From Desulfovibrionaceae bacterium (GTDB lineage Bacteria > Desulfobacterota > Desulfovibrionia > Desulfovibrionales > Desulfovibrionaceae), in NCBI GenBank assembly GCA_015709205.1, contig JACCQO010000009.1, positions 54,904 to 118,903 on the forward strand: 64,000 nucleotides of DNA. Direction: 5' to 3'. Made by a program: the position numbers and the translations under genes. Positions 25,034 through 60,011 of this stretch are shown piece after piece. Positions within the stretch are counted from its first letter, which is position 1. The number at the start of each line of letters is the position of its first letter. The notes under the pieces are model-generated. The model searched no databases, was not told the origin of the DNA, and saw only the letters and a program-made list of their open reading frames with translations.

Positions 25034-25519
25034 ATGCAGCGTCATCGCGTGCTCTTGGTGGACGACGAGAGCCGGTTTACCGGGCGGCTGACCGCCGAGC
25101 TGGAGCGCTTGGGCGCTCCGGTGGAGCGCGTGGGCTCGGTGCGCGCGGCCGAGGAGGTCCTGCGCGGGGTCTGTACGGGCGCAGAGCCGGGCGCCGGGCC
25201 GGGCTCGGGTCTGGTCCCGATGGACCTGATCCTGGTGAATCTGGACGCGGTGGAGGCGGGCGCGCGCGCCGTGGCGCGGCTCAAGCGCGCGGCCCCGGCC
25301 GCCGAGATCGTGGCCCTGGCCGACCGGCCCTCCATGGAGGACGCGCGCGTGTGCATGGACATGGGCGCGTTCGACTACTTCGTGCGTTCCGCGCCCCTGG
25401 ACGAACTCCTGCTCATCCTGCACGACGCGGCCGAAAAGCTGCGCTACGTGGCCGAGGCCGCCACCTCGCCCTTTGCCGACAGCTGCGGCGCGTCCGCCGC
25501 ATCCGGAGGCCGCCCGTGA
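25034..25519 (+). CDS. Degenerate (pseudo-)receiver domain protein
   Basis: This 161-residue CheY-like protein has no output domain; the RBS is GGGGAGAGG. The N-terminal acidic pair is intact (VLLVDDE, D10-D11). Aligned with the receiver at 44227-44616, the phosphoacceptor Asp54 is Asn69 (DLILVNLD), conserved Thr82 is Ala96 (VALADR) and the Lys-Pro pair is Arg118-Ser119 (FDYFVRSA). The frame DARVCMDMGAFDY is otherwise very close, so the two are paralogues. A 12-15 residue Gly/Pro/Ala insert precedes the acceptor strand. It cannot be phosphorylated at the normal site and is probably a constitutive or protein-binding version. Its TGA overlaps the GTG start of the next gene by 4 nt, implying coupled translation. 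Confidence 0.85.
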   Translation: MQRHRVLLVDDESRFTGRLTAELERLGAPVERVGSVRAAEEVLRGVCTGAEPGAGPGSGLVPMDLILVNLDAVEAGARAVARLKRAAPAAEIVALADRPSMEDARVCMDMGAFDYFVRSAPLDELLLILHDAAEKLRYVAEAATSPFADSCGASAASGGRP

Positions 25520-44050: not shown

Positions 44051-44068
44051 TTGCGCAATTTTGCGTAT
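44051..44068 (+). promoter_or_regulatory. Candidate activator site for the receiver operon
   Basis: TTGCGCAATTTTGCGTAT lies about 70 bp upstream of the -24 box at 44120. Similar words occur at 56806-56836 at the same relative distance before the second sigma-54 promoter. This spacing suits an enhancer-binding protein site. Confidence 0.5.
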
Positions 44069-44119: not shown

Positions 44120-44135
44120 TGGCACGGGGGTTGCT
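44120..44135 (+). promoter_or_regulatory. Sigma-54 promoter of the receiver/PEP-like operon
   Basis: TGGCACGGGGGTTGCT matches the -24/-12 consensus exactly: GG (44121-44122), 10 bp, GC (44133-44134). It is about 90 bp before the ATG of the receiver at 44227. Confidence 0.88.
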
Positions 44136-44226
44136 CCTTTCCGGGGAGAGAACCCGGCGTGATTGCGTGTTTCTGCGCGAAATGGGGCGGCGGTCGCCCC
44201 GGGGGCACCAGAAGGAGGAGAACGCC

Positions 44227-44616
44227 ATGAGCCGTATGCGTGTGCTGTTGGTGGATGACGAGGCCGATTTCCGGGCGCTGCTGCTCAAGCGCATGACCCA
44301 TCGCGGCGTGGACGCGATGGCCGTCGGCGACGGCGAGGCCGCCCTGGCGGCGGTGGCCGAGGGACATTTCGACGTGGTCGTGCTCGACGTGCGCATGCCC
44401 GGCATGGACGGCATCGAGGTGCTCCGGCGGCTCAAGCGCGACCACCCGGACGTGGAGGTCGTGCTCCTGACCGGGCACGCCAGCATCGAGGCCGCGCGCA
44501 CGGGCATGGACCTGGGCGCCTTCGACTACTGCATCAAGCCCGTGTCCATCAACGACCTGCTGGTGACCCTGCAGGAGGCCGTGGCCAGGCGCCGCCTGGC
44601 GGCCGGAGCCGAATAG
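44227..44616 (+). CDS. Stand-alone CheY-like response regulator
   Basis: This 129-residue single-domain receiver starts MSRMRVLLVDDEADF behind AAGGAGGAG. All catalytic residues are present: D10-D11, phosphoacceptor D54 (VVVLDVRMPGMDG), T82 (LLTGH) and K104 (YCIKPVS). It has no output domain, so it signals by protein contact. The adjacent downstream gene (11 nt) is the first PEP-synthase-like protein; two histidine kinases follow, and a CheX-like phosphatase lies divergently. Its close paralogue at 25034 has lost the phosphoacceptor. Transcription from the sigma-54 promoter upstream is likely. Confidence 0.95.
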   Translation: MSRMRVLLVDDEADFRALLLKRMTHRGVDAMAVGDGEAALAAVAEGHFDVVVLDVRMPGMDGIEVLRRLKRDHPDVEVVLLTGHASIEAARTGMDLGAFDYCIKPVSINDLLVTLQEAVARRRLAAGAE

Positions 44617-44627
44617 GGGGAGAGGCC

Positions 44628-47369
44628 ATGGCGCGCGTGCTCATGGAATTGGTGCGGTCGCTGTTCGGCGGCGCGCAGGGCGACCCGGAGCGCGATCGGG
44701 AACTGGTGCTCGCGCACCGGGACCGCTGCCTGCACTTCAAGACCCTGCTTTCCGCCAACAGCCGGGCCCTTTCGGCCATGACCGACATCGAGGACGCCCT
44801 GGACGGCGAGCGCAGCTTCGGCATGCCCTTCGTGCGCGAGCGCTGCACCACCTCCCTGGTGGAGGTGCACCGCATGGTCGCCGCCCTGGACGGGCTCACG
44901 CCCGACCGCTACCGGGAGCTCTTCACCCGCTACGACCTGGTGCGCTCGCGCGTGGAAAAGGCCCTGGAGGCGGCCTCGGACCGCTCCACCGGGCCGCTGT
45001 GCCTGCCGTTTTCCAAGATCCGCATGAGCCACGCCGCCGAGGTGGGCGGCAAGATGGCCGTGCTCGGCGAGGCTGAGTCGCGGCTGCCGTGCCGCACGCC
45101 CGGCGGGTTCGTGGTCACGGCCTCGGCCTTCCGCCGCTTCGTGGACGGCTCCGGCCTGGGCGCGGAGATCGCCCGGCGCATCCAGGCCGCGGGCGAGATG
45201 GACGCCGAGGAGAGCGAGATCGTCTGCCGCGGCATCCGCGAACTCATTTTGGGCGCGGAACTGCCCCAGCCCCTGCTCACGGCCCTGCGCGCCCAGGTGG
45301 ACGCGCTGGTGGTCCGGTTCGGCCCCGGCGTGGGCCTGGCCGTGCGCTCCAGCGCCGTGGGCGAGGACGCGGCGGGCGCATCCTTCGCCGGGCAGTTCCG
45401 CACCGTGCTCGGCGTGCTGCCGGACGGCGTGGAAGGGGCCTACAAGGACGTGGTCGCGGCCCTCTGGACGCCCGCGGCCCTGGCCTACCGCGCCGGGCGC
45501 GGCCTGCTGGACCAGGACGCGGCCATGTGCGTGGGCGTGCTGCCGATGATCGACGCGGCCAAGGGCGGGGTGGCCTATTCCAAGGATCCCCTGGACCCGG
45601 CCTCGGGCGACGTGCTCGTGGAGGCCGCCTGGGGGCTGCCCGCCTCGGTGGTGGACGGCTCCCTGGAGCCGGACCGCTTCCGCGTGCCGCGCAACGGCGA
45701 CGGCGTGGTCGAGGTCTCGCCGGGCCGCAAGGGGCACATGGTCGTGCTGGCCCCGGAGGGCGGCGTGGCCCGCGTGCCCGTGGAGACGGGCCGCGCGGAG
45801 CAGCCCTGCCTGACCAAGGGCGAGAGCCTGCGCGTGGCCGAGCTGGCCATGGGCCTGGAGCGCCTCTTCGGCGTGCCCCAGGACGTGGAATGGGCCATCG
45901 ACGCGTCCGGCGTGCTCGTGCTCCTGCAGAGCCGCTCCCTGGGGCTCATGGAGAGCGTGCCGGAGCCCGCGCTGCTGGACGTGCTCGGTCCGCGCGAGGA
46001 GGGCGAGGTGCTCTGCCGCGGCGGGGTCACGGTCTCGCCGGGCGGGGCGTACGGCCCGGCCCACGTGCTCCGTTCCGAGGCCGAGGCCGACGACTTTCCC
46101 ACGGGCGGCGTGCTCGTGGCCGTGGCCCCGGAGCCGCACCTGGCCCTGCTCCTGCCCCGGGCCGGGGCCGTGGTCACGGAGCGCGGCGGCCGCACCGGCC
46201 ACCTGGCCACCGTGGCGCGCGAGATGGGCGTTCCGGCCATCTTCGGCCTGCGCGACGCCGCCACCCAGCTGCAGGGCGCGGGCGTGGTCACGGTGGACGC
46301 CACCAACTGCCGCGTCTGGCGCGGCGTCCACGACATCCCGCGCATCGAGCGGCGCGGCCCGGGCGAGCGGCTGCGCGGCAGTCCGGTCTGGCGCGTGCTC
46401 AAGCAGGCCGCCGCGCACATCGTGCCCCTGAACCTGCTCGACCCGGACGCCAGGGAATTCTCTCCCGAGGGCTGCAAGACCCTGCACGACATCACCCGCT
46501 TCTGCCACGAGCAGGCCGTGCGCGATCTCTTCGAATCCGGAAGCGATCTGCCCGTGGGCGCCTCGCGGCGGCTGGTCAGCGGCACGCGCATGCAGTTCTG
46601 GGTCGTGGACCTGGGCGGCGGCATCGCCGCGCCCGCCACGGCCGATGCCCCGGCCGCCCCGGACGAGGGCCAGGCGGCGCCCGCCCCGCCCGCCCCGACC
46701 ACAGCGGACCTGGACGTGGAGCGCATCGTCTGCCGCCCCATGCGCGCCCTGTGGCGCGGCATGACCTCCGTGCCCTGGGAGGGCCCGCCCGCGCCCGACG
46801 CGCGCGGCTTCCTCTCGGTCATCGCCCAGGCCGCGTCCAACCCGGACCTGGACCCGGCGCGCGCCTCCAGCTTCCAGGAGCGCAGCTTCTTCCTCATCTC
46901 CAAGGATTTCTGCAGCCTGCATTCGCGCTTCGGGTTCCACTTCAGCATCATCGAGGCCCTGCTCGGCGACAGCCCGGCCGAAAGCTACGCCAGCATGCGC
47001 TTCAAGGGCGGCGCGGCCGACCCGGAACGCCGCGCGCGGCGCGCGCACATGGTCGGCGAGGTGCTGCGCGACATGGGCTTTTCCGTGGACGTGCGCCGCG
47101 ACGCGCTGACCGCGCGCATCGAGGGCGTGGAGCCCGCCGAGCTGGAGGCCCGGCTCGAGGCCCTGGGCTTCCTCAGCCTGCACACGCGGCAGATGGATAT
47201 GGTCATGGGCGACCCGGTGCGCACGGGCGAATGCCGCGCCCGGCTGCTGCGCGGCCTGGCCGCGCTGCCGGGCGGCGGCGGGTTGGCCGCGCCGGCCGCC
47301 CCGGGCTCGTCCGGCCCGCAGGACGCGTCCGCGCCCACGGACGCCACGGCCGGAAGGACCACGGCATGA
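44628..47369 (+). CDS. PEP-synthase-like protein A: ATP-grasp and phosphohistidine domains with novel C-terminal domain
   Basis: The 913-residue protein begins with an extra helical region (about 25-115). A PPDK_N-type ATP-grasp follows (VGGKMAVLGEAE near 140; VRSSAVGEDAAGASFAGQ near 238; EAAWGLPASVVDGSLEPD; DVEWAIDASGVLVLLQSRS near 420-440), then the swivel domain GGRTGHLATVAREMGVPAIF with phosphorylatable His525. PEP synthase would continue with a PEP/pyruvate TIM barrel. Here, from about 597 to 880, an unrelated domain follows, shared with the proteins at 51123 and 25516 (QFWVVDLGGG, LWRGMTSVPWEGP, FKGGAADPERRARR, HTRQMDMVMG). It may move phosphate from ATP to His and then to an unknown acceptor, as in rifampicin phosphotransferase, or serve as a sensor. 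The operon position links it to the receiver and HK1. Confidence 0.85.
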   Translation: MARVLMELVRSLFGGAQGDPERDRELVLAHRDRCLHFKTLLSANSRALSAMTDIEDALDGERSFGMPFVRERCTTSLVEVHRMVAALDGLTPDRYRELFTRYDLVRSRVEKALEAASDRSTGPLCLPFSKIRMSHAAEVGGKMAVLGEAESRLPCRTPGGFVVTASAFRRFVDGSGLGAEIARRIQAAGEMDAEESEIVCRGIRELILGAELPQPLLTALRAQVDALVVRFGPGVGLAVRSSAVGEDAAGASFAGQFRTVLGVLPDGVEGAYKDVVAALWTPAALAYRAGRGLLDQDAAMCVGVLPMIDAAKGGVAYSKDPLDPASGDVLVEAAWGLPASVVDGSLEPDRFRVPRNGDGVVEVSPGRKGHMVVLAPEGGVARVPVETGRAEQPCLTKGESLRVAELAMGLERLFGVPQDVEWAIDASGVLVLLQSRSLGLMESVPEPALLDVLGPREEGEVLCRGGVTVSPGGAYGPAHVLRSEAEADDFPTGGVLVAVAPEPHLALLLPRAGAVVTERGGRTGHLATVAREMGVPAIFGLRDAATQLQGAGVVTVDATNCRVWRGVHDIPRIERRGPGERLRGSPVWRVLKQAAAHIVPLNLLDPDAREFSPEGCKTLHDITRFCHEQAVRDLFESGSDLPVGASRRLVSGTRMQFWVVDLGGGIAAPATADAPAAPDEGQAAPAPPAPTTADLDVERIVCRPMRALWRGMTSVPWEGPPAPDARGFLSVIAQAASNPDLDPARASSFQERSFFLISKDFCSLHSRFGFHFSIIEALLGDSPAESYASMRFKGGAADPERRARRAHMVGEVLRDMGFSVDVRRDALTARIEGVEPAELEARLEALGFLSLHTRQMDMVMGDPVRTGECRARLLRGLAALPGGGGLAAPAAPGSSGPQDASAPTDATAGRTTA

Positions 47370-47497
47370 ACGCTTTCACGGGAGTATCCGGGTATCCAAC
47401 CACCTCCGGACCGGCGCCATCGGGAAAGGCGCCGGGCCTCCCCATACGGGCGTCCGGCGCCTCCCTACCGCCGGACGCCCCCTGCGGGGAAAGGTAG
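47366..47497 (+). CDS. Possible 43-residue coupled small protein
   Basis: An ATG overlaps the stop of PEP-like protein A (ATGA, 47366-47369) and opens a 43-codon frame (MNAFTGVSGYPTTSGPAPSG ... CGER) ending 6 nt before the HK1 start at 47504. Position and overlap suggest translational coupling, but composition is Pro/Gly/Ser-rich and no family is recognised. It could be a coupling leader rather than a functional protein. Confidence 0.3.
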   Translation: MNAFTGVSGYPTTSGPAPSGKAPGLPIRASGASLPPDAPCGER

Positions 47498-47503
47498 ACG
47501 CGC

Positions 47504-49145
<1,642 letters not shown>

Positions 49146-49153
<8 letters not shown>

Positions 49154-49367
49154 GATCCGCTGCCAGTGGGGCGGGTAGGACCCGCTGCCAGTGGGCGAAC
49201 GTCGAGTGCCGCGGGGAGATGTGGCTTTCCCCCGTTCGCATCTGGAGATGGGGAGAGCGGAGAGGCCTCTGTTGGTGGGTGAATGGGCGGGTAGGACCCG
49301 CTGCCGATCGTCGAACGGCGGGTGCTGCGGGGAGATGTGGCTTTCTCTCGTTCGCAGCTGGAGATGG
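49146..49367 (+). repeat. Intergenic repeats between the two kinase genes
   Basis: A 25-bp unit (GCGGGTAGGAYCCGCTGCCAG ...) occurs twice in tandem (49146-49170, 49171-49195). Its first 19 bp recur at 49287-49305. The ~81 bp starting at 49171 and at 49287 are two similar copies (GGGGAGATGTGGCTTTC and CTGGAGATGG in both). GCGGGT-AGG-ACCCGC is an inverted repeat. The first unit starts within the HK1 stop region. No gene is supported in 49154-49595. Confidence 0.8.
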
Positions 49368-49595
49368 AGGGAGACCCGTCGATGCGGGCGGCCGCTGGAG
49401 GCGCGATGCCATTGAAATTTTCCTCCGCTTGCTGCCTGGGGCGGAGGGGGACGGCGGACCCGATAACGGGCGGGTCCGGCCAGGGCCGGGACGACGCCGG
49501 GGTGACGGTCCCCGGGGAGTGTGAACGGGTCCGGCGGCGGCGCTCCGGGGAGTCGGGGGCGCGCCGCCGGGCCGCAACAGGGACGGGAGCGAAAC

Positions 49596-50606
49596 GTGGA
49601 CGAGACGAGAACGGAATCCGGGAGTGACGGTGGCGGCAGGGCCGGGGCCGAGGCCTTCTGCTGCCGTATGGCCCATGAGCTGAATACGCCCCTGGCGATC
49701 ATCGGGCTGGAGGTCGCCAGTCTGGAGCGGCTGCTCGGCGGCGCGGCCATCAGCCCGCCGGCCTGCGATGCCTCGGTGCGCGACCGCGTGGCCGAGATCC
49801 GCACTCAGGTGGACCAGGCCGGGCGGGTGGCGCGGACCATGCTGCAGCTGGCGCGCAACGACAGGGTGGCCGAGGAGCCCGTGAGCCCGGCGGACGCGGT
49901 GCGCACCGCCGTGGCCCGCGCGCGCCGTCGCGGCGCGCTCTCCGCTCCGGGCGCGTCGAGCGTGGCGATTGCGCCGGACGCGCCGGACGAACCGCGCAGC
50001 CTCGGCGCGCACCTCACGATCTGCGTGGTCGGGGATCGGGCCGAGACCGCCTGCCTGAGCACGGATCCCGTGCTCCTGGGGCAGGTGCTCGACAACCTGC
50101 TGGACAATGCCCTGCGGGCCGTGGCCGAGGCCGCCGCAGACCGCGCCGAGGCGGCCCGCGTTTGTGCCTTTGCCGGATCGGCGGGTTCGGCGGGTGCGAA
50201 AATTGCGCAAAGGCCGGGAGCCGTTGCGCCGGTCGCCGGATGTGTGGAGGTGCTGGTGCGCGCCCCGTCCGGAGGCGGCGTGGAGATCGAGGTGTCCGAC
50301 GACGGTCCGGGCGTGCCCGAGGGACTACGCGAACGCGTCTTCGAGCTCTTTTTCACCACCCGGCCGCACGACGGTGGCAGCGGCATCGGCCTGGCCCTGT
50401 GCCGGGACATCGCCGCGCGCCTGGGCGGCGGGCTGGAGCTGCGCACGGCCGAACTGGGCGGCGCGTGCTTCGTGCTCCGCCTGCCCGCATCCTGCGCCGC
50501 CGGGCGCGTTCACGGCCCGCAGCGGGCCCGGGGTCGGGCCGCCGCATCCGTGCACGTCACAGCCCCCCACGCGCCGGCCCGGTGCGAGGAGGCCGCCACA
50601 GGCTAG
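49596..50606 (+). CDS. Soluble histidine kinase (HK2)
   Basis: The 336-residue protein starts at GTG 49596 behind GGGAG (spacing 6). It has no membrane segment and almost no sensor: the H-box FCCRMAHELNTPLAIIG begins at residue 21, with phospho-His27. The HATPase shows GQVLDNLLDNALRAV, VSDDGPGVPEG and GSGIGLALCRDIAARLGG, plus an Ala/Gly-rich insert around 185-215. It may be a cytoplasmic partner kinase or phosphatase acting on the receivers nearby, or it may get its signal by binding PEP-like protein A or B. A strong terminator follows. Confidence 0.88.
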   Translation: MDETRTESGSDGGGRAGAEAFCCRMAHELNTPLAIIGLEVASLERLLGGAAISPPACDASVRDRVAEIRTQVDQAGRVARTMLQLARNDRVAEEPVSPADAVRTAVARARRRGALSAPGASSVAIAPDAPDEPRSLGAHLTICVVGDRAETACLSTDPVLLGQVLDNLLDNALRAVAEAAADRAEAARVCAFAGSAGSAGAKIAQRPGAVAPVAGCVEVLVRAPSGGGVEIEVSDDGPGVPEGLRERVFELFFTTRPHDGGSGIGLALCRDIAARLGGGLELRTAELGGACFVLRLPASCAAGRVHGPQRARGRAAASVHVTAPHAPARCEEAATG

Positions 50607-50633
50607 GCCGCCGCAACAAGGTTCCCTGCCGCC

Positions 50634-50690
50634 GCGGAGCGCGGCCGTCGCGTCTTGCCCTTGACGCGGAGGTCGCGCTCCGCTCTTTTT
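50634..50690 (+). terminator. Terminator of the receiver/PEP/kinase unit
   Basis: GCGGAGCGCG (50634-50643) pairs with CGCGCTCCGC (50674-50683), with an inner CGCGTC/GACGCG stem, followed by TCTTTTT (50684-50690). It ends the plus-strand unit before the convergent PEP-like gene B. Confidence 0.8.
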
Positions 50691-51122
50691 CGCATTCGGC
50701 GCGCAGGGCTCGACGCAGGGGGCCGCTCCGGGCGGGCCCGCCGAATGCGGGACGTGGCGGGAGCCGGAGCGGGACGCGAGGGGGCGGGGGCCCGGCTGCC
50801 GGGCGCTGCGGGCTCGACGCGGATCGGGCTTCCGGGCGGGGAAGGCCGACGGGGCGGCGCATCGGGCCGCATTCGATCCGGGGGACATCCCATCGGGCGA
50901 AAGTCGATTCGGCGAAAACCGATCAAGAGGATATTCGATCAAGGGACATCCGATCGGGCGGAGCGCCAGGGACGGCCGCCAGGGCGGTGCGTGGGGCGCG
51001 CTGTCGCGCAGCCGTCCCGCCGCCGCTTGTCCGGCACTTGGGCCCGCTGTCTTGGCTCGGCGTTTCGGTCCCGTTGCGCGAACGCCTTGATCCGGCCCGG
51101 GAATCCGGCCTGGAGTCGATCC
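50691..51122. other. Convergent intergenic region with short direct repeats
   Basis: No gene is supported. GGGACATCC-[C/G]-ATCGGGCG occurs at 50882-50899 and 50943-50960, and CGATCAAG at 50920-50927 and 50936-50943. These GATC-rich words lie in the gap between HK2 and PEP-like gene B. Confidence 0.55.
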
Positions 51123-53930
51123 TCAGCGCGCCCGCGCGCCCCCGCTGGGGCCGTCGCCCCCGCTGGGGCCGTCGCCCCCGTTGGGGCCTTCGTTCTCGTT
51201 GGGCGGGGTCGCGCAAGGGGCGGTCTCCCGGTCCGCGCCGGGTTCGGCCTCGGTCCGCTGCCCTGCGGGCGGCTCCGCGTAGGGCGAAAAGTCGTAGCGC
51301 CCGGCCAGGAAGCACTGCGCGGCCAGGGTCACGCTGTTTTCGTCGGCCATGAGCATGTCCAACTGCCGGGTGTAGATCAGCAGCCGCCCCATGGATTCCA
51401 GCACCACGTACAGCTCGGCCGCCGGGCGCTTGGTCAGCCGCGCGGCCACGCGGTCGCCCACGGTCTCCACCGTGAACCCCTGCCGCGTGAGGATCAGCGC
51501 GATGGCCCGCACGCGGCGTTCGCGGCGCACGTCGTCCGCGGCCCCGCCCCGGAACTGGAAGCTCACGTAGTTGTTGTCGATGCGCTCGCCGCACCAGGCG
51601 TCGAGCACGCCGTAGTGGTAGCCCACGCGCGAGCTGAAGTTCAGGTAGCGGTCCGAGACCACGGCGTAGCTGCGGTCGCCGAAGCGCTGGCCGCCCTGGT
51701 TGGGCGGCTCCAGCATCTGGCGCGTCACGACCGAAAGCAGCCCGCCCAGGTGCACGGGACGCGGCTCGCGCCGGGCCACGGCCGGGTCGGTCATGCCCGT
51801 GAGCAGCGCGCGCAGCGGGGCCGAGAGCACCGCGTCGAGGGACACGCCGCCGTTTTTGCCCGTGGCCGGGGCCGCCGCGTCCAGGCCGCCGCCGATGTCG
51901 ATGGCGTAGAGGTCCACGGGCAGCCGTGCGTCGATCTTCACGGCCCCGCCACTGCCCGTGGTCATGTCCGAGAGCCGGAACATCTCGGCGTAGGACATCT
52001 CGTGCGCGTAGCGCATCAGGTCGTGCACGGTCTGCACGTGCTCGGGCGTGAAGGTGCGGGCCTTGGGATCCGTGAGGTTCAGCGGGGTGGAGAGTTCGGC
52101 CACGCGGGAGAGGACGCGGTGCACCGGGGTGTCGAGCATCAGCGGCCGCCGGGGCCTGGAGAGGCGCATCAGCTCCGGCACCAGCCCGCGGTACACGCGG
52201 CCCGAATGGGCGTCCACGGTCACGCGCATGCCTTCCTCCAGCACGCGCAGCGCGCCCGGGAGGTTGAAGACCGTGGGCACGCGGAACTCCCGCGCCAGGG
52301 AGGCCAGGTGCCCGGTGAGGCTGCCGACCTCGGCCACCAGGGCCGCGGCGCGGTGCAGCACCGGCCCCAGCCGCGGCGAGGACTTGGGCGCCACGACCAC
52401 GGCCCCCCGCGGCACCTCGGCCAGATCCGTGTCCGGCCCGACCAGGGCCACCAGTCCCGCGCCCACGCCCGGGCAGGCGCATTCCCCACCGGAAAGCAGC
52501 ATCTGCGCGCCCGGCACCGCGGGCGTGAGCCGCGTGGCCTCCGCGTCGATGCGCAGGGGCCGCGTCTGGAGGATGAACAGCCGCCCGCGCTTGTCCACGG
52601 CCCATTCCACGTCCTGGGGCGCGCCGAAGTGGCGCTCCAGGAGCTGGCCGTAGGTGGCCAGTTCCACCAGTTCGTCCTCGGCCAGGCAGGGCAGCCCGGC
52701 CTGGGCCTCGGAAAGTTCCTCGGCCACGGTGCCGTCGGCCTCGGACGCCCCAGACGCGCCGGACGCGCCGCGCGCGTCCCCGTCGGGGCCGTCGCCGTGC
52801 AGCGTCTCCTGCGCGCACACGAAGCGCCGCGTCTTGCGGCCGATCTCGCTCTCCACCACGCGCGGCGGGTCGCCGCGCACCAGCCGCCAGCCGTCGGGCG
52901 TGACCTCGCCGTCCACCACGGACGTGCCCAATCCCCAGGCCCCGTTGACCACCAGCCGGTCGTCGGCCGGGTCCGTGGGGTTGCGGGTGTAGAGCACGCC
53001 GCTGCAGCGCGCGTCGACCATGGCCATCACGGCCACGCTCATGCCCGTTTCCTCCGAGGGGATGCCATGCAGCAGCCGGTAGGAGACCGCGCGCGGGGAA
53101 AAAAGCCCGGCGAGCACGCGCTTGTAGGCCGTGAGCACGTTGCGGCGGCCCACGTTGAGCAGGGTCAGGTACTGCCCGGCGTAGGACAACCGCCCGTCCT
53201 CGCCCAGGGCCGAGGAGCGCAGGGACACGCGCAGCCCGGCGTCGCCCGTGCGCGCGCGCAGGTCGTCGAAGGCGTAGAGCACTTCCCTGGCCAGGTCCGG
53301 CGGGACGTCGGTCTCCAGGATGCGCCGCTGCAGGGTCGCGCAGCGTGCGGCCAGGGCGGCCTCGTCCGCCGGGTCCACGTCCTGCTCCATGGCGCGCAGC
53401 TCCGCGGGCAGCCCGGCGGCCACGGCCACGGCCCAGTAGCCCGCCGTGGTCACGGCAAAGCCGGGCGGCACGGGCATGGCCGCCCGGGAAACCAGTTCGC
53501 CCAGGTTGGCGTTCTTGCCGCCCACCAGGTCGGCCATGTGCCGGTCCACCTCGGCATGGGCCAGCACCAGGGGCTTGCGCGGCGGGGTGAAGGGCGTTTC
53601 GTAGGTGTGCGCCAGTTCGCCGGCGAGCCGCTCGGCCACGGCCGTCAATCCCTTGTGCCGCCCGCCGGAAAGATCGCGCAGGCTCTGGGCCATGGCCACG
53701 GCGTCGCGGCCCATGCGCGTGGCCAACTGGCGCACTTGGCCCAGGCCGAAAACCACGTCCCCGGCCATGAGTTGCTCGACCTCGGCCATGAGTCCGGAGA
53801 GGCGCGCGTTGGCGTTGAGCAGGGCGCGGAACAATTTGTACTTGTTGCGAAAGGTTTCGGCGTCCACGACCTGCTGCGGCGCGGTCTGCGCAGCCGGGCG
53901 GCGGAACAGGCGGGAAAACAGGCCGGCCAT
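51123..53930 (-). CDS. PEP-synthase-like protein B, paralogue of protein A
   Basis: The 935-residue protein has the layout of protein A: helical N-terminus (FRNKYKLFRALLNANARLSG), ATP-grasp (LVGGKNANLGELVSRA, VSLRSSALGEDGRLSYAGQY, NGAWGLGTSVVDGEVTPDGW, DVEWAVDKRGRLFILQTRPL), swivel GSLTGHLASLAREFRVPT with His541, and the shared C-terminal domain (STPLNLTDPKARTF, RSYAVVSDRYLNFSSR, FQFRGGAADDVRRERR, YTRQLDMLMAD). The ATP-grasp matches PEP synthase more closely than that of A. An extra Gly/Ala/Asp-rich insert sits near residue 385 and the C-terminus ends in GGDGPS repeats. It lies 46 bp after the sigma-54 activator gene on the same strand and is convergent with HK2. Catalytic His is retained, PEP barrel absent; the acceptor is unknown. 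Confidence 0.85.
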   Translation of the reverse strand: MAGLFSRLFRRPAAQTAPQQVVDAETFRNKYKLFRALLNANARLSGLMAEVEQLMAGDVVFGLGQVRQLATRMGRDAVAMAQSLRDLSGGRHKGLTAVAERLAGELAHTYETPFTPPRKPLVLAHAEVDRHMADLVGGKNANLGELVSRAAMPVPPGFAVTTAGYWAVAVAAGLPAELRAMEQDVDPADEAALAARCATLQRRILETDVPPDLAREVLYAFDDLRARTGDAGLRVSLRSSALGEDGRLSYAGQYLTLLNVGRRNVLTAYKRVLAGLFSPRAVSYRLLHGIPSEETGMSVAVMAMVDARCSGVLYTRNPTDPADDRLVVNGAWGLGTSVVDGEVTPDGWRLVRGDPPRVVESEIGRKTRRFVCAQETLHGDGPDGDARGASGASGASEADGTVAEELSEAQAGLPCLAEDELVELATYGQLLERHFGAPQDVEWAVDKRGRLFILQTRPLRIDAEATRLTPAVPGAQMLLSGGECACPGVGAGLVALVGPDTDLAEVPRGAVVVAPKSSPRLGPVLHRAAALVAEVGSLTGHLASLAREFRVPTVFNLPGALRVLEEGMRVTVDAHSGRVYRGLVPELMRLSRPRRPLMLDTPVHRVLSRVAELSTPLNLTDPKARTFTPEHVQTVHDLMRYAHEMSYAEMFRLSDMTTGSGGAVKIDARLPVDLYAIDIGGGLDAAAPATGKNGGVSLDAVLSAPLRALLTGMTDPAVARREPRPVHLGGLLSVVTRQMLEPPNQGGQRFGDRSYAVVSDRYLNFSSRVGYHYGVLDAWCGERIDNNYVSFQFRGGAADDVRRERRVRAIALILTRQGFTVETVGDRVAARLTKRPAAELYVVLESMGRLLIYTRQLDMLMADENSVTLAAQCFLAGRYDFSPYAEPPAGQRTEAEPGADRETAPCATPPNENEGPNGGDGPSGGDGPSGGARAR

Positions 53931-53976
53931 GGGGCCTCCTTGAGCGCCGTCGGGCGCGACGCGCTTGCGCCGCGCC

Positions 53977-56775
53977 CTACGACGCGATTTCGTACCGTGT
54001 GGCCGGGCCGCGCCCGGTCTTCTGCAGCAGCCCCCGGCGCACCATGTCCTGCAGGTCGTAGACCGCGGTGCGCGACGGCAGGTCCCCGCCGACCATCTCC
54101 TCGTAGTCCGCGCGCGAGATGCGCCCCATGGCCGCGATGTGCGGCCAGGCCTTTTCCTGGCGGGGGTTGAGGCCGGGAGGCGGGCCTGCGGGCCGCTCGG
54201 CGGCCGCGCGGCGGCGCGCCGGGGGCGCGGGGGACTCGGAAGAGGACATGGACCCCGGGCCGGGCTGGGCCTGGGCGGGACGCGCCGGAGAGGGCGCGTC
54301 GCGGTCGGCGGTCCGCTCCCTGGGCCTGTCCGTGGACCTGTCCACGGATCTGTCTGGGGATTTGTCTGTGGGCCTGTCTGCGAGCTTGTCCGGCGCCTTG
54401 TCCGCGGGCCGTTCCGCAGTCTTGTCCACGGTCGCGCCTTCGCGCCCGGAACCCTGGCCGGGCTCGGCTCCGCGCGGTTGCGCGGCGGCGGGCTCGGCCG
54501 CCGGCACGACGTCCTCCACGGCCATCTCGTCCAGGTCCTCCAGGGGCCAGGGCACGATCTGCTCCGTGCGCTCGGCCTCCAGGTGGATGTCCGCAGCCTG
54601 GATCACGGCGTGGTCGCTCATGACCGCGGCGCGGGTGATGGCGTTGACCAGTTCGCGGATGTTGCCGGGCCAGTCGTAGGTGCGCAGCTTTTCCAGGGCC
54701 CCGCGCGACAGGGCCAGTCCCTGGCGCGCGGCCAGGCGCTCGGCGTTGCGCAGATAGTGCCAGGCCAGCGAGGGGATGGATTCCGGGTGTTCGCGCAACG
54801 GCGGCGTGTGGATGCTGACCACCTTGAGGCGGAAATAGAGATCCTCGCGGAATTCGCCCCGGCTGATGCCCGCCACCAGGTCGGCGTTGGTGGCCGCGAT
54901 CACGCGCACGTCCACCTCGATCTCGTCGTCGCTGCCCAACGGCTTGATGCGGCGCATGGCCAGGGCGCGCAGCAGCGACTGCTGGACGCGCGGCGAGGCC
55001 GATTGGATCTCGTCCAGGAACAGGGTGCCGCCGTTGGCCTCCAGGAAGGCCCCCTTGCGGTCCAGGCGCGCCTCGGTGAACGCGCCCTTGACGTGCCCGA
55101 AGAGGGTGTCCAGGAGCAGGTTCTCGTCCAGGGCGCCGCAGTTGATGGAGATGAAGGGCCGCCCGGCGCGCCGGCTGTGCGCGTGCACGGCCTCGGCCGC
55201 GAGCTGCTTGCCCGTGCCCGTCTCGCCGACCACGAGCACGTCCACGTCCACGGACGCGGCCTTGATGATCTCGGACTTGAGGCGGTCGATCTTGGGCCCG
55301 AAGCCCACGATTTCCGGGATGCTGTCCCCGGGCAGGCCCGGGTTCACGGCGGGCAGTTCGTCCTCCAGGGGCGCGCGCTCCTTGAGGTTGGCCTCCATCA
55401 GGGCCTGCTCGTGGCGGGCCAGGTCCTCGCCCTGGCGACAGATGACCTCGATGAGCCCGTTGATGGTTTCGGTCAGCAGCCGGGTTTCGTAATTTTTCGA
55501 GGTCAATACCAAGGGCTTGAATTTGCCTTTTTCGCGCAAACCCGCGACGGATCGCGCAAGATTCATGATCGGCCGGGTCAGGATGCGACTGATGACCAGG
55601 ATGATCGCGGCGATGACGAAGATGGTCGAGAGGGTGACCACGAACATCAGGTCCAGGTGGCGGTAGCCCGCGGCCATGGTCAGCTTGGAGCGGTCCACGA
55701 AGGCCAGGCCCCAGTGCACGGTGGCGTTCTGGCCGGGCGCCGACGAGAAATACACCGGCGCGTAGGCCATGTAGTAGTTCTTGACCTCCTTGGCGTTGAT
55801 CCCGTCGTCGTGGGCCGCGATCAGGCCGAAGCGGCGTTCGCGCACGTCGGTGATCATCTGCCAGTAGGGCTGGTTGGACGAGGAGGGGCGGAAGGCCACG
55901 TCGAACCCCGGGCGGCCCAGGGCTCCTTCCAGGCCGGATCGCGCCAGATAGGTGGACAGGGGAGCATTGGGCTGCTCCACGGGCTCGGACTGGAAGAGCA
56001 TCCAGCCTTCGGTGTCGAAGATGTAGGAATAGCGCACCTCGTCGCTGCGCGGGTAGCCCCAGATCGGGGACTTGGGCGAGTTGTAGAGCGAGAGGATGTC
56101 GCGCACGCGGGAAACGTCGAGCCCCAGGGTCAGCAGCCCGGTCCGGCCGTCGCCGTCCGGATCGCAGGGCGTGGAGAAGCGCAGCACGTGGGCCGTGAGC
56201 CGGTGGCCGGGATTGTACCGGGTCGGCGCGGGATAGGAAACCTGGAGGATGCGCGAAAGGGCCACCTGGCCGATGCCGGATTCGGCGGCCTCGTCGAACA
56301 GGCGCAGGGGGGACGGGTCGGACGGGCCCAGTCCCTCGCCCTCCAGGGTGGCGATGCTGCCGTCCTCGCCGGCCATCAGAAAGATGCGCCCGTCGCCCGA
56401 GGGCGGCAGGTAGCTCAGTTCGCGGTAGCGGAGGCCGCCCGAGGCGCGCGTGCGCTCCAGGAAGGCGCGCAGGTGCCGTTCGTCCATGGACGGATCGCGC
56501 GCCAGGAAGAGCAGGTCCTGGCGGCAGGTGGAGAGCAGGCTTTCGATGTCGTGGGCAATGGCCAGGGTCTGGACCTTGACGTTGCGCTGCAGGGCGATGT
56601 CCAGGAAACTCAATGAGATCTGGTAGCCGAGATACCCCGTGACCGCGAGGATCGCCATCACCGAGGGGATCAGGGTGAGCATGAGCCGGAAATTGAGGGC
56701 CTGGGGCCAGAATCCGATGAGCGGGGTTCTGCCCTGGCTGGAAAGAAAAGGAAAATTGCCGTTGTACAAGCCCAT
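53977..56775 (-). CDS. Membrane-bound sigma-54-dependent activator with Cache-like sensor
   Basis: The 932-residue protein starts at ATG 56775 (MGLYNGNFPFLSS) behind GGAGGGG. Two membrane helices (about 31-52 and 375-398) flank a ~320-residue periplasmic Cache-like sensor. HAMP follows near 400-450. The AAA+ domain (about 490-720) has Walker A GETGTGKQ, the sigma-54 contact loop GAFTEA (canonical GAFTGA), Walker B GGTLFLDEI, and WPGNIRELVNAI. After a long charged linker of D-R/D-K-P repeats, the C-terminus (about 865-932) is winged-helix-like (NPRQEKAWPHIAAMGRISRA, SRTAVYDLQDMV) rather than a Fis-type helix. It probably drives the sigma-54 promoters at 56881 (divergent) and 44120 in response to a periplasmic ligand. 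Confidence 0.9.
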   Translation of the reverse strand: MGLYNGNFPFLSSQGRTPLIGFWPQALNFRLMLTLIPSVMAILAVTGYLGYQISLSFLDIALQRNVKVQTLAIAHDIESLLSTCRQDLLFLARDPSMDERHLRAFLERTRASGGLRYRELSYLPPSGDGRIFLMAGEDGSIATLEGEGLGPSDPSPLRLFDEAAESGIGQVALSRILQVSYPAPTRYNPGHRLTAHVLRFSTPCDPDGDGRTGLLTLGLDVSRVRDILSLYNSPKSPIWGYPRSDEVRYSYIFDTEGWMLFQSEPVEQPNAPLSTYLARSGLEGALGRPGFDVAFRPSSSNQPYWQMITDVRERRFGLIAAHDDGINAKEVKNYYMAYAPVYFSSAPGQNATVHWGLAFVDRSKLTMAAGYRHLDLMFVVTLSTIFVIAAIILVISRILTRPIMNLARSVAGLREKGKFKPLVLTSKNYETRLLTETINGLIEVICRQGEDLARHEQALMEANLKERAPLEDELPAVNPGLPGDSIPEIVGFGPKIDRLKSEIIKAASVDVDVLVVGETGTGKQLAAEAVHAHSRRAGRPFISINCGALDENLLLDTLFGHVKGAFTEARLDRKGAFLEANGGTLFLDEIQSASPRVQQSLLRALAMRRIKPLGSDDEIEVDVRVIAATNADLVAGISRGEFREDLYFRLKVVSIHTPPLREHPESIPSLAWHYLRNAERLAARQGLALSRGALEKLRTYDWPGNIRELVNAITRAAVMSDHAVIQAADIHLEAERTEQIVPWPLEDLDEMAVEDVVPAAEPAAAQPRGAEPGQGSGREGATVDKTAERPADKAPDKLADRPTDKSPDRSVDRSTDRPRERTADRDAPSPARPAQAQPGPGSMSSSESPAPPARRRAAAERPAGPPPGLNPRQEKAWPHIAAMGRISRADYEEMVGGDLPSRTAVYDLQDMVRRGLLQKTGRGPATRYEIAS

Positions 56776-56805
56776 CCCACGCCCCTCCTTGCGCCTTTTC
56801 CTCAC

Positions 56806-56836
56806 TTGCGCAATCACCGTTTGCGCGATTGCGTAC
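56806..56836 (+). promoter_or_regulatory. Candidate activator sites for the TauE/SafE operon
   Basis: TTGCGCAAT (56806-56814) and TTGCGCGATTGCGTAC (56821-56836) lie about 60-76 bp upstream of the -24 box. They resemble TTGCGCAATTTTGCGTAT at 44051-44068. They may also serve the divergent activator gene. Confidence 0.5.
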
Positions 56837-56880
56837 CCCTAACTAGCTGCATATTCGAAAAAAAGTCAATGTGAATGTTT

Positions 56881-56896
56881 TGGCATGCAGGTTGCT
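56881..56896 (+). promoter_or_regulatory. Sigma-54 promoter of the TauE/SafE operon
   Basis: TGGCATGCAGGTTGCT fits the -24/-12 consensus: GG (56882-56883), 10 bp, GC (56894-56895). It is 138 bp before the first gene of the operon and next to the divergent sigma-54 activator. Confidence 0.88.
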
Positions 56897-57034
56897 ACTC
56901 TTTCATGCGCAATGCGTGCCGAATTATTGTGCAAGGTGCGCTGCGGATCAAGGAACAAGGCGTCGGGGGCGGCAGCCGGGACCCTGAGCGGGGGCGAACG
57001 CCCAGACGCGACACAACAACACGGAGGAAGGAAG

Positions 57035-57334
57035 ATGATTCGGAAACTTATGCTGCTTTTGGGCGCGTTGGTGGCCGGGCAATCGTGGCTGGCCAAGGCC
57101 GCCTGGGCCGGAGGCAAGAAGGCCTCCGAACTGGTCGTGGTGGCCGACACCAGGGTGTTGAAGTCCGGCGTGATGATCTACTTCGCCGACCTCTACAACA
57201 CCAACATTCTGCTGTTCGCCATCTGGGCGGTGGTCCTCACGGCGGGCCTGGGGTGCTTCCTGGGCTTCTTCATGGACAAGATCATGGGCATGACCGGCCT
57301 TGACCTGACGTCCCGCAAGATCGTGGAACACTAA
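57035..57334 (+). CDS. Small inner-membrane protein, first gene of TauE/SafE operon
   Basis: The 99-residue protein starts MIRKLMLLLGALVAGQSWLA behind GGAGGAAGG. Residues 4-22 are a membrane anchor or signal sequence (possible cleavage near AAWAG). A second hydrophobic span lies at about 58-80 (ILLFAIWAVVLTAGLGCFLG). No family is recognised. It lies 26 nt before the TauE/SafE gene, so it may be an accessory subunit of the exporter. Confidence 0.8.
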   Translation: MIRKLMLLLGALVAGQSWLAKAAWAGGKKASELVVVADTRVLKSGVMIYFADLYNTNILLFAIWAVVLTAGLGCFLGFFMDKIMGMTGLDLTSRKIVEH

Positions 57335-57360
57335 ACCGAAAGGGCTCCTGGGAGGACGCT

Positions 57361-58386
57361 ATGGAATGGTTGTACATGTACATGCCCATCGCGGGCGTGA
57401 AAATTCTCTGGCCTGGTCTGGTGCTCATCGGTTTCTCGGTGGGCGTCATCGGCGGCTTCTTCGGCATGGGCGGCGCCTGGATGGTCACGCCCGGCCTGAA
57501 CATCCTCGGCTTCCCCATGGCCTTCGCCATCGGGACGGACATCGCCCACATCGCGGGCAAGTCCATGGTCTCCACCATCCGGCACTCCAAGTTCGGCAAC
57601 GTGGACTATAAATTGGGCATCGTGATGCTCGTGGGCACCATGGTGGGCATTGAAATAGGCGCCCAGCTGGTCATGTTCCTGGAGCGCATAGGAACTGTCG
57701 GCAGCGTGGTGCGCTGGGTCTACGTGGTCTTCCTCGCGCTCATCGCCTGGATGGTCTTCTACGACTACTTCAAGGCCGTCTCGAACAAGAAGAAGGGCAT
57801 CACCTCCGAAAAGGGCGCCGAGGGCGTGACCTGGTACAAGACCCTGCACAAGCTGAATATCCCCCCGATGATGCACTTCCACGCCTCGGGCTTCACCTGC
57901 TCCATGTGGCTGCCCATCATGGTTTCCCTGGCCACCGGTATCCTGGCCGGCTTCCTGGGCATCGGCGGCGGCCTGCTGCGCATGCCCGCCCTGGTCTACC
58001 TCATCGGCTGCCCGACCCACGTGGCCGTGGGCACCGACCTCTTCGAAGTCATGATCTCCGGCCTGTACGGCGCCTTCACCTACACCCTGAAGGGCCGCAT
58101 TGAGATCGTGGCCGTGTTCGTGATGCTCACCGGCGCCGCCATCGGCGCCCAGATCGGCACCGTGGCCACCAAGTACTCCAAGGGCTACGGCATCCGCCTG
58201 GCCTTCGGCATGGCCGTGCTCTGCTGCGGCATCTCCATCGTGCTCAAGCAGCTCAAGTACAACACCCCGGCCGCCGTGCTCATCCTGAGCACCATCGGCG
58301 TGATCTGCCTGTACATCATCAAGATCATGCTCACCGGCGCCGCGCAGGAGCTGCGCGAGAAGAAGGCCAATCAGCAGGCCCAGTAA
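57361..58386 (+). CDS. TauE/SafE family exporter
   Basis: The 341-residue inner-membrane protein has about eight helices in two repeats, each with the family motif: VIGGFFGMGGAWMVTPGLN (about 29-47) and AGFLGIGGGLLRMPALVYL (about 198-216). TauE/SafE proteins are thought to export sulfite, sulfonates or sulfoacetate and related anions. The loop between the repeats is longer than usual (YDYFKAVSNKKKG ... HKLNIPPMMHF). The adjacent sigma-54 promoter and activator give ligand-controlled expression. Confidence 0.92.
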   Translation: MEWLYMYMPIAGVKILWPGLVLIGFSVGVIGGFFGMGGAWMVTPGLNILGFPMAFAIGTDIAHIAGKSMVSTIRHSKFGNVDYKLGIVMLVGTMVGIEIGAQLVMFLERIGTVGSVVRWVYVVFLALIAWMVFYDYFKAVSNKKKGITSEKGAEGVTWYKTLHKLNIPPMMHFHASGFTCSMWLPIMVSLATGILAGFLGIGGGLLRMPALVYLIGCPTHVAVGTDLFEVMISGLYGAFTYTLKGRIEIVAVFVMLTGAAIGAQIGTVATKYSKGYGIRLAFGMAVLCCGISIVLKQLKYNTPAAVLILSTIGVICLYIIKIMLTGAAQELREKKANQQAQ

Positions 58387-58411
58387 CCCTGGCCCAAAGG
58401 AGCCCACAACG

Positions 58412-58750
58412 ATGATCAAGAGAATCCTGAAAACCCTGATGGTGGCGCTGCCTCTGGCGCTGCTTCTGATCGGACAGGCCCACGCCGCGGAAGTGATCCA
58501 GGGCAAGTGCCTGACCTACGACAAGGCCGCCAAGACGCTCAGCGTCGAGGAATACGACATCAACTTCAGCAAGGAATACCCCTACGGGCATCCCACGGGC
58601 ATCGAGTCGGTCGTCGGCGTGGCCGAGGCCCAGATCGGCATCGAGCCCGAGGCCGGGGACATCCTGCGCATCGCCTTCGTGGCCGAGGGCGACGCCAAGA
58701 AGGCCCTCAAGATCATGAACGTCTCCAAGCAGGATCTGCGCAAGAAGTAG
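58412..58750 (+). CDS. Small periplasmic protein in the TauE/SafE operon
   Basis: The 112-residue precursor has a signal peptide (MIKRILKTLMVALPLALLLI, cleavage near AHA-AE). The mature part (VIQGKCLTYDKAAKTLSVEE) looks like a compact beta domain with one Cys, and I recognise no family. It follows the exporter by 25 nt, so it could be a periplasmic partner that binds the exported anion or a metal. Confidence 0.8.
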   Translation: MIKRILKTLMVALPLALLLIGQAHAAEVIQGKCLTYDKAAKTLSVEEYDINFSKEYPYGHPTGIESVVGVAEAQIGIEPEAGDILRIAFVAEGDAKKALKIMNVSKQDLRKK

Positions 58751-58807
58751 CATCGGTCGCGGCGGGGCGGTTGCGCGCAGGTGGCCGTCCCGCCGCGGCT
58801 TCACAGG

Positions 58808-58857
58808 GGCCCCGCGCCGCTTCCGGCCGATCCCCCGCCGGAAGCGGTCGCGGGGCC
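58808..58857 (+). other. Strong intra-operon hairpin
   Basis: GGCCCCGCG-CCGCTTCCGGC (58808-58827) pairs with GCCGGAAGCGG-T-CGCGGGGCC (58837-58857), a 20-bp stem with one bulge and a 9-nt loop. There is no T-run. It lies in the 168-bp gap between the third and fourth genes of the TauE/SafE operon and probably sets mRNA stability or relative expression. Confidence 0.75.
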
Positions 58858-58918
58858 TGCAAACGAAAAGGGCCGCTGGGCCCATAAACGGAAAGGACGC
58901 ACGCGGAGGAGCGAGACC

Positions 58919-59158
58919 ATGCGCGGAGCAAGAGAAGTATCGGAACGGCTGAACACCCGGCAGCGCATCGTGGTCCTGGCCATGGACGCGGCCCTGCTGG
59001 CCGAACTCACGGGCACCATCTACGTCTTTTCGGGCAACCCCGATACCATGACCGCAAATTTCATCAAATATTTCCTGCCGATGCTTCTGGTCACCGTGTT
59101 CGTCGCGCGGCGCTTCATCCGCCTGTTCGACGACAACAGGCCGGAGAAGGCGGCCTAA
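58919..59158 (+). CDS. Small two-helix membrane protein in the TauE/SafE operon
   Basis: The 79-residue protein starts MRGAREVSERLNTRQRI behind GGAGGAG. Two hydrophobic spans (about 18-39 and 50-69) are separated by a short polar loop. No family is recognised. It is preceded by the strong hairpin and lies 16 nt before the next membrane protein, so the last two genes form a tight pair. Confidence 0.75.
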   Translation: MRGAREVSERLNTRQRIVVLAMDAALLAELTGTIYVFSGNPDTMTANFIKYFLPMLLVTVFVARRFIRLFDDNRPEKAA

Positions 59159-59174
59159 GGCCGCGGGCCGGCGC

Positions 59175-60011
59175 ATGAGCATGAGGACGTACCGCTGGTT
59201 GACGGTCGCCGCCGCCCTGTTGCTGGTCGTGGCCGCGGCCGATGGCCTGTACAAGGGCTTCGGCGAGAGCAAGCAGCTGTTCCGCGTGGTGGTCGGCGGC
59301 GAGGCGCCGGTCAGCGGCGACCTCTACATCCCCTCGGGCGAGAAGGGCGTGCGCCTGCATGCCGAGGCCTCCGGCCAGGTGGGCCAGGCCCTGTCCCGCT
59401 ATGTGGACTACAAGCCCAAATCCCCCGATTTCGACCTGCGCTTCATCGAACTCAAGGGCCGCCTGTGGCGCGCCACGCTCTACGCCCCCCTGGGCGCCAA
59501 GCCCGGCGAAGCCTCCCTGCAGGTCTATTTCCGGGGCTACGACCCCGGCCCGGAAAGCAAGCGCTACACCGTGCGCATCTATCCCGACCAGGCCGCGCTC
59601 AACGCCGATCTGACCAGCTATCTGGAGCGCTACCTGGGGTTGCAGCCCTGGTGGCTAGTGGTCGGGCTCATCCCGGTGATCCTGGCCCTGTTCTGGGTCG
59701 TGTACCGCCAGACCACCCAGGAGGAGGCGCAGCTCATCGGCATGGGCATCGGGCCGATCTACAAGCTCGCCAAGCGCGGCGCGGACTGGGAGGTGGTCTT
59801 CGGCCTGGGCCGCGTGCACGGCGTGCGGGCCGGCGACGAGCTGGCCATTCTCGACGCCCGGTACAACCGCGTGGGCACCCTCGTGGTGGATCAGGCCGAA
59901 GAGGACTTTTCCGCCGCCGCCTTGCCCATGGGCAGCGACATCAAACCCGGATATTTCGTGGTCCGCTCCGACGCGGCCGCGGCCGTGGCCGCGTCGGTCA
60001 AGACCGCCTGA
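59175..60011 (+). CDS. Membrane protein with periplasmic and cytoplasmic domains, end of TauE/SafE operon
   Basis: The 278-residue protein starts MSMRTYRWLTVAAALLLVVA. An N-terminal helix (about 7-24), a ~130-residue periplasmic beta-rich domain (FRVVVGGEAPVSGDLYIPSG), a second helix (about 157-178, WWLVVGLIPVILALFWVVY) and a ~95-residue cytoplasmic tail can be seen. The tail has a repeated strand pattern (VHGVRAGDELAILDARYNRV). No family is recognised. It may couple the periplasmic exporter partners to a cytosolic signal. Confidence 0.75.
   Translation: MSMRTYRWLTVAAALLLVVAAADGLYKGFGESKQLFRVVVGGEAPVSGDLYIPSGEKGVRLHAEASGQVGQALSRYVDYKPKSPDFDLRFIELKGRLWRATLYAPLGAKPGEASLQVYFRGYDPGPESKRYTVRIYPDQAALNADLTSYLERYLGLQPWWLVVGLIPVILALFWVVYRQTTQEEAQLIGMGIGPIYKLAKRGADWEVVFGLGRVHGVRAGDELAILDARYNRVGTLVVDQAEEDFSAAALPMGSDIKPGYFVVRSDAAAAVAASVKTA

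Follow-up and report, generated by a model that had tools for sequence, protein, structure and literature searches.

A PEP-synthase-like family with an undescribed C-terminal domain suggests a new ATP/phosphohistidine control of uptake or extrusion in sulfate-reducing bacteria

Phosphoenolpyruvate (PEP) synthase, PPDK and rifampin phosphotransferase share two domains, an ATP-grasp domain and a phosphohistidine domain, and act on a small acceptor. Here we describe relatives of these enzymes encoded in a 64-kb stretch of DNA from a Desulfovibrionaceae bacterium (G000:C67:54904-118903, hereafter referred to as the window; the source genome comprises 4.25 Mb in 120 contigs). A block at 44120-60011 encodes a stand-alone receiver, two PEP-synthase-like proteins (hereafter referred to as A and B), two histidine kinases, a membrane-bound sigma-54 activator and an operon for a TauE/SafE (TSUP) permease. 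The original prediction, made from the sequence alone, had placed all of these in one block, and every gene was confirmed. They form three units: the receiver, A and kinases 1 and 2 on the plus strand; the activator followed by B, 46 bp apart, on the minus strand; and the TauE operon on the plus strand, divergent from the activator and consisting of a DVU0150-family gene, the permease gene and three more genes up to 60011.

Parts of this system are already in print as separate operons. In Desulfovibrio, mutants of a 'nitrate cluster' resist nitrate, not nitrite (Korte 2014, PMC4001038). The cluster runs from DVU0251 (TauE) through DVU0250, DVU0249 (binding protein), DVU0248 (kinase), DVU0247 (receiver) and DVU0246 (PEP-synthase-like) to DVU0245 (phosphatase). 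D. vulgaris mutants of DVU0251, DVU0250, DVU0247 and DVU0246 grew equally with and without 100 mM nitrate, and the mutant of the phosphatase DVU0245 was still nitrate-sensitive. Because DVU0245 is the gene that follows DVU0246, we infer that the DVU0246 phenotype is not caused by polarity. In this operon of related gene order, the published data make both the PEP-synthase-like protein and the receiver necessary for a permease-dependent phenotype. That the permease, receiver and PEP-synthase-like mutants share the phenotype argues that the target is the permease or its expression and not the imported compound. The authors' hypothesis is that a leaky thiosulfate transporter lets nitrate in. The phenotype points to uptake (of nitrate, perhaps of thiosulfate) rather than to the export of a sulfur compound that the original prediction had proposed.

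In a second published system, DVU0151 is predicted to control DVU0150-0146, a regulon listed as transmembrane transport (Kazakov 2015, PMC4641369). In the same paper, transporters of the TSUP or PSE type without a known substrate are noted in nine sigma-54 operons (PMC4641369), and two papers describe many TSUP permeases of sulfate reducers as lacking a known substrate (PMC5840216, PMC4641369). As the main text of PMC4641369 contains neither 'phosphoenolpyruvate' nor 'TauE', A and B appear to lie outside the regulon as described there. Our search of the open-access literature found no description of this family or its new domain, nor of the recurrent linkage reported below.

A and B are not PEP synthases

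A and B matched the Pfam families PPDK_N (240.7 and 285.9 bits, respectively) and PEP-utilizers mobile domain (65.1 and 59.8 bits, respectively), and A and B carry the catalytic residues that mark an ATP-dependent phosphohistidine enzyme at the superfamily level. The same scan found no PEP-utilizers_C barrel (PF02896) in either protein, though the barrel was detected in the PPDK_N protein encoded on contig C92, the only one of the genome's eight PPDK_N proteins to have it; the genome's other barrel match, at C64, sits in an enzyme-I-sized frame. Scores against curated families were far below the cut-offs, being 287.8 (A) and 291.0 bits (B) against 739.75 for PEP synthase (TIGR01418), 196.6 and 199.5 bits against 999 for rifampin phosphotransferase (NF041857) and, for A, 23.1 bits against 341.7 for PTS enzyme I (TIGR01417), where B was not listed.

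The AlphaFold model of A, built with 89 sequences (mean pLDDT 87.3), has long helices at residues 20-113 and a mixed alpha/beta C-terminal domain (hereafter referred to as the C-domain), and matched PEP synthase, rifampin phosphotransferase and PPDK in the PDB. Modelled alone (pLDDT 86.5), the C-domain showed a secondary structure without a barrel and gave no convincing fold match among the structures compared. No usable sequence relative of its roughly 300 residues was found in the PDB, and in none of the 78 scanned family members, three of them from the window, did it match Pfam. These results set A and B clearly apart from PEP synthases, in line with the original prediction: an undescribed domain of about 300 residues replaces the barrel while the ATP-grasp and His domains remain intact. 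Their acceptor is likely to be other than pyruvate.

Conserved linkage in four operon types

Family members were found with a C-domain profile (A1), which matched in 203 of the 248 genomes of the source's own order. Of 297 genomes drawn from across the phylum, 107 had a match, ten of these belonging to the source's own family; the source genome has nine matches. Neighbourhoods were read in the window, at the source genome's own loci and in 120 regions taken from 36 genomes, each of a different genus, giving 156 C-domain rows, and 151 members were placed on a tree. Two genomes of about 1.6 Mb (G112 and G222) retain the DVU0150 family, and no C-domain protein was found in them by the profile.

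A neighbourhood count for the C-domain had been proposed beforehand, and receivers, kinases, TauE and sigma-54 activators did prove to be conserved neighbours. Within 5 kb of the 156 C-domains we counted a receiver in 132 rows, a kinase in 90, TauE in 48 and a sigma-54 activator domain in 36; within 8 kb the numbers rose to 140, 119, 83 and 56, respectively. Among the tree members, 136 of 151 had a receiver or kinase within about 8 kb, and 74 had TauE. In the bin immediately upstream, receivers numbered 0.40 per kb, compared with 0.06-0.13 per kb in bins 8-12 kb upstream. In nine genomes, seven of them in one contig and two in two contigs, 17 of 38 members lay within 8 kb of a TauE gene, whereas 10,000 rotations gave a mean of 1.26 and a maximum of 9; conversely, just 16 of the 70 TauE genes in these genomes were linked to a family member. 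Neither outcome named in advance as speaking against the original prediction is what we found: the linkage is conserved in relatives, and A and B are no ordinary PEP synthases.

Named relatives, of which the best 80 of 323 were kept, agreed with this. Their loci, selected by an A- and type-4-like query, bear mostly Desulfobacterota labels (for instance Desulfosarcina widdelii, Desulfacinum infernum and Pseudodesulfovibrio); three carry the label Myxococcales, Myxococcota or Anaeromyxobacter, one Magnetobacteriaceae and one Betaproteobacteria. Many of the records are metagenome bins, and the labels may be wrong. Where the upstream flank was long enough (57 members), a receiver was present in 54, a kinase in 44 and TauE in 41.

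Four operon types recur on the tree. Type 1 has the order of the nitrate cluster: TauE, a 251-aa protein, a phosphonate-type binding protein (PF12974), kinase, receiver, PEP-synthase-like protein and dual-specificity phosphatase. Of its 27 members, 25 have the phosphatase nearby, 24 a receiver, 22 the binding protein, 21 a kinase and 12 TauE, and the source genome has its own operon of this type (L012), with the binding protein and phosphatase. In type 2, an activator, receiver and kinase stand beside TauE, an Alph_Pro_TM protein, the PEP-synthase-like protein and a receiver; the first copies have TauE, the Alph_Pro_TM protein and a receiver in 15 of 15 cases each, and eight loci contain extra PEP-synthase-like copies, one third copy being cut by a contig end. 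Type 3 is the arrangement of the window, DVU0150/TauE, activator and B. Among 20 B-type members, 15 have a sigma-54 activator and 14 TauE, and five B-type loci converge with an A-type member and its receiver and kinases (in relatives, with further receivers); a receiver lies directly upstream of A-type genes in 19 of 19 cases. Type 4 comprises a kinase, receivers, TauE and the PEP-synthase-like protein, with TauE directly upstream in 14 and a receiver in 22 of 24 members, and the same order appears in records labelled Myxococcales and Anaeromyxobacter (L205 and L245). In a further locus of the source genome (L009, G000:C15), a member lies between two TauE genes, close to glycogen-phosphorylase-like and universal-stress-protein genes.

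Catalytic residues and the proposed mechanism

Seven ATP-grasp and His positions were all intact in 131 of the 156 members, A and B included. A stand-alone receiver lay within 450 bp of 85 of the 156, and the phospho-Asp was kept in 77 of 79 distinct receivers. The one same-strand exception is a degenerate receiver elsewhere in the window (25034-25519); it overlaps, by the four bases GTGA, a family member that has no ATP-grasp/His domain. An adjacent receiver was found in 4 of 14 rows without the swivel His (His525 in A), compared with 70 of 131 intact members. The C-domain has a polar site of its own (H620, D621, R624, H627, R767, H771, D825 and D857), which was complete in 121 of 134 intact members and in 5 of the 14 rows without His525. 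This co-erosion gave a Fisher p of 9e-6 (2e-5 without duplicates and a truncated row), uncorrected for kinship.

The middle copies of type 2 bear on the route of the phosphate. In all eight (L010 of the source genome, at G000:C12, and L117, L142, L066, L113, L123, L171 and L133), the ATP-grasp motifs are eroded and the swivel His is kept in a GHLATxARE-like loop, and the C-domain site carries a single change, R624 to His. The eroded ATP-grasp residues differ between genomes; the loss of the ATP site is one ancestral loss retained across eight genera. With a dead ATP site and a retained His, the His would need charging from outside, and these copies suggest that phosphate passes between proteins.

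The reading that we put first, giving it a little less than an even chance, is that ATP-charged phosphohistidine proteins act with stand-alone receivers to switch TauE-type permeases or to supply them with energy. The swivel His would receive its phosphate from ATP in the ATP-grasp domain, in the manner of PEP synthase, and the phosphate would then go to or through the C-domain and protein partners instead of pyruvate, the likeliest partner being the stand-alone receiver. Together with the histidine kinases, the phosphohistidine proteins would set the state of the TauE-family permease, switching it on or energising it once made, and the DVU0151-type activator would set its transcription. A bolder version, possible but doubtful, makes the family a new phosphorelay class in which phosphate moves from ATP to the swivel His and, through the C-domain, reversibly to stand-alone receivers, also between ATP-dead paralogues. 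Fuelled by ATP, such a class would be the counterpart of the sugar PTS and would gate oxyanion permeases of the TauE family in Desulfobacterota and, going by record labels, in Myxococcota.

Several observations weigh against this mechanism. TauE is near only those 74 of the 151 tree members, including just 6 of 19 of the A type and 12 of 27 of the nitrate-cluster type; eight of the 151 have no partner nearby, some of them owing to contig ends. B-type genes mostly face receivers on the opposite strand and do not share an operon with them, and no fusion of a PEP-synthase-like protein with receiver, kinase or permease domains was found. Three members without His525 (L119, L153 and L156) still adjoin a receiver with its Asp, four full-length ones (L083, L119, L139 and L165) retain the C-domain site, and the His of the type-2 middle copies could be structural. 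The conservation counts, like the Fisher test, are uncorrected for shared ancestry. The nitrate phenotype belongs to another operon type, whose kinship with the block is judged from gene order and annotation. Within that study, the kinase DVU0248 is annotated as a pseudogene, the phosphatase mutant of D. alaskensis is also resistant (fitness +2.08), and pooled and single-mutant data conflict for DVU0250 and DVU0248 (PMC4001038).

Rather unlikely, in our estimate, is that A and B are enzymes acting on a small molecule that the C-domain binds, such as the transported sulfur, sulfonate or phosphonate compound, which they would phosphorylate or activate. Transport would then be coupled to trapping, and the receivers and kinases would merely regulate. 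The nearest matches in sequence and structure are indeed such enzymes (PEP synthase, PPDK and rifampin phosphotransferase), the conserved polar site suits a ligand, and 22 of the 27 nitrate-cluster-type operons encode the phosphonate-type binding protein. However, the most constant neighbours are receivers without an output domain, the His is kept in copies without an ATP site, and loss of the protein mimics loss of the permease in the related operon, as loss of a downstream enzyme need not.

We consider it unlikely that A and B, as the original prediction had offered for an alternative, report the energy state. They would then respond to ATP, AMP or pyruvate-like ligands by regulating the sigma-54 activator or the kinases, and would affect the permease through its expression only. 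This would fit the position of B-type genes after a DVU0151-type activator in 15 of 20 loci, and the sigma-54-type site that 17 of 19 rows have ahead of the DVU0150/TauE operon (15 of 17 without two overlapping duplicates). It fits less well with the many nitrate-cluster-type and type-4 loci that have no activator in the stretch read, yet have TauE or solo receivers.

It is very improbable that the neighbourhoods merely mirror common descent and a general tendency of signalling genes to cluster, without the genes working together. Two-component genes are plentiful in these genomes, and bins 8-12 kb off still hold 0.02-0.14 receivers per kb; the peak of receivers in the bin adjoining the gene, the excess of TauE over the 1.26 expected, and the same operon order in Desulfobacterota and in the two records labelled Myxococcales or Anaeromyxobacter all speak for more than that, and the published nitrate phenotypes argue against independent functions for one operon type. 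We give next to no credence to A and B being ordinary PEP synthases or dikinases with an overlooked barrel, which their PPDK_N and PEP-utilizers matches far above cut-off might invite and which we reject on the missing barrel, the low family scores and the C-domain.

A good share of TSUP permeases, in four recurrent operon types, is in any case tied to one family with an undescribed domain. If control through phosphohistidine proteins proves correct, a transferable phosphohistidine protein charged by ATP would join the known ways of driving receivers, and the published nitrate-resistant mutants, which are relevant to the control of oil-field souring, would gain a molecular reason. The switching of the permease would be directly testable in D. 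vulgaris.

Layout of the window and comparison with known systems

The features of the block and of a second family locus are collected in Table 1. The two kinases and the receiver have the domains and residues of two-component proteins; the domain search gave no sensor domain for kinase 2, and a Pfam search found no Fis-type helix-turn-helix (HTH) in the activator. Sigma-54 promoters had been predicted ahead of the receiver-A unit and the TauE operon. Searching the 64 kb for TGGCAC-N5-TTGCW with at most one mismatch gave only two sites, each preceding one of these units; shuffles gave 1.9, so that the count by itself is not significant. Just 4 of 19 rows, one being the window, had such a site ahead of the receiver-A unit. 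The palindrome TTGCGCAA occurs exactly three times in the window (1.0 expected), so that its position upstream of both promoters no more than hints at an activator site.

Table 1. Features of the block and of the second family locus in the window
Feature	Position	Strand	Remarks
Degenerate receiver	25034-25519	+	Response_reg 29.2 bits, just below cut-off 30.2; phospho-Asp to Asn, Lys to Arg
Family member	25516-26928	+	N- and C-domains only; no Pfam match
Palindrome, candidate activator site	44051-44058		TTGCGCAA, exact; 69 bp upstream of the 44120 promoter
Sigma-54-type promoter, receiver-A unit	44120-44135	+	TGGCACGGGGGTTGCT; exact pattern match
Stand-alone receiver	44227-44616	+	129 aa; Response_reg 101 bits; phospho-Asp and Lys present
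A, PEP-synthase-like	44628-47369	+	913 aa; helical N-domain, ATP-grasp PF01326, His swivel PF00391 (His525), new C-domain about 578-880
Histidine kinase 1	47504-49153	+	dCache_1, HisKA, HATPase_c
Histidine kinase 2	about 49521-50606	+	HisKA, HATPase_c; start 49521 or 49596, uncertain
B, second PEP-synthase-like	51123-53930	-	935 aa; domains as in A; 33% identical to A
Membrane sigma-54 activator, DVU0151 type	53977-56775	-	GAFTEA loop; start ATG 56775 or GTG 56817
Palindrome	56806-56813		TTGCGCAA, exact; 75 bp upstream of the 56881 promoter
Sigma-54-type promoter, TauE operon	56881-56896	+	TGGCATGCAGGTTGCT; one mismatch to pattern
DVU0150-family small protein	57035-57334	+	NF040783 112.9 bits, cut-off 70
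TauE/SafE (TSUP) permease	57361-58386	+	PF01925 146 bits, cut-off 32.6
Small protein	58412-58750	+	signal-peptide-like start; weak DUF4881 likeness, 23.9 bits, below cut-off 27
Small hydrophobic protein	58919-59158	+	79 aa; no Pfam family above cut-off
Last TauE-operon protein	59175-60011	+	278 aa; hydrophobic segments N-terminal and internal

Between the two kinase genes, 49154-49520 is intergenic and contains repeated CGGGTAGGACCCGCTGCC-like units; relatives have a receiver gene there, and none was found in the window. A terminator-like hairpin, together with ETF and acyl-CoA-dehydrogenase-like genes, lies upstream of the second family locus (25034-26928). In another genome (L074, G009:C1, 9696-11411), a weak member below the score cut, also without the ATP-grasp/His domains, directly follows TauE, and no receiver was found across the 20-kb region. 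Elsewhere in the window, 10696-13719 encodes a SulP sulfate-permease protein with STAS and cyclic-nucleotide-binding domains in a single chain.

In A and B, as in PEP synthase and PPDK, a swivelling phosphohistidine domain comes after the ATP-grasp domain, and the catalytic residues are conserved; unlike those enzymes, A and B have the C-domain in place of the barrel, an extra helical N-domain, and receivers and TauE as neighbours. The same two domains are related in sequence to those of rifampin phosphotransferase and the PigC/RedH ligases, which act on other acceptors and are not known to be linked to signalling; the score of A against the rifampin phosphotransferase family is far under its cut-off. 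PTS enzyme I, which shares a related swivel domain, heads a protein phosphotransfer chain that controls transporters. It is fuelled by PEP through its barrel and has no ATP-grasp domain, whereas A and B lack that PF02896 barrel.

The block combines TauE, receiver, PEP-synthase-like protein and kinase as does the nitrate cluster DVU0251-DVU0245/Dde_0597-0605 (PMC4001038). It differs in that the phosphonate-type binding protein and dual-specificity phosphatase are absent from its ten scanned genes, with DVU0150/DVU0151 parts in their place. These parts agree with the DVU0151 regulon (DVU0150-DVU0146) in an AAA+ activator with an odd loop and without a Fis-type HTH, a divergent TauE-type operon with a DVU0150-family gene, and a sigma-54 promoter (PMC4641369).

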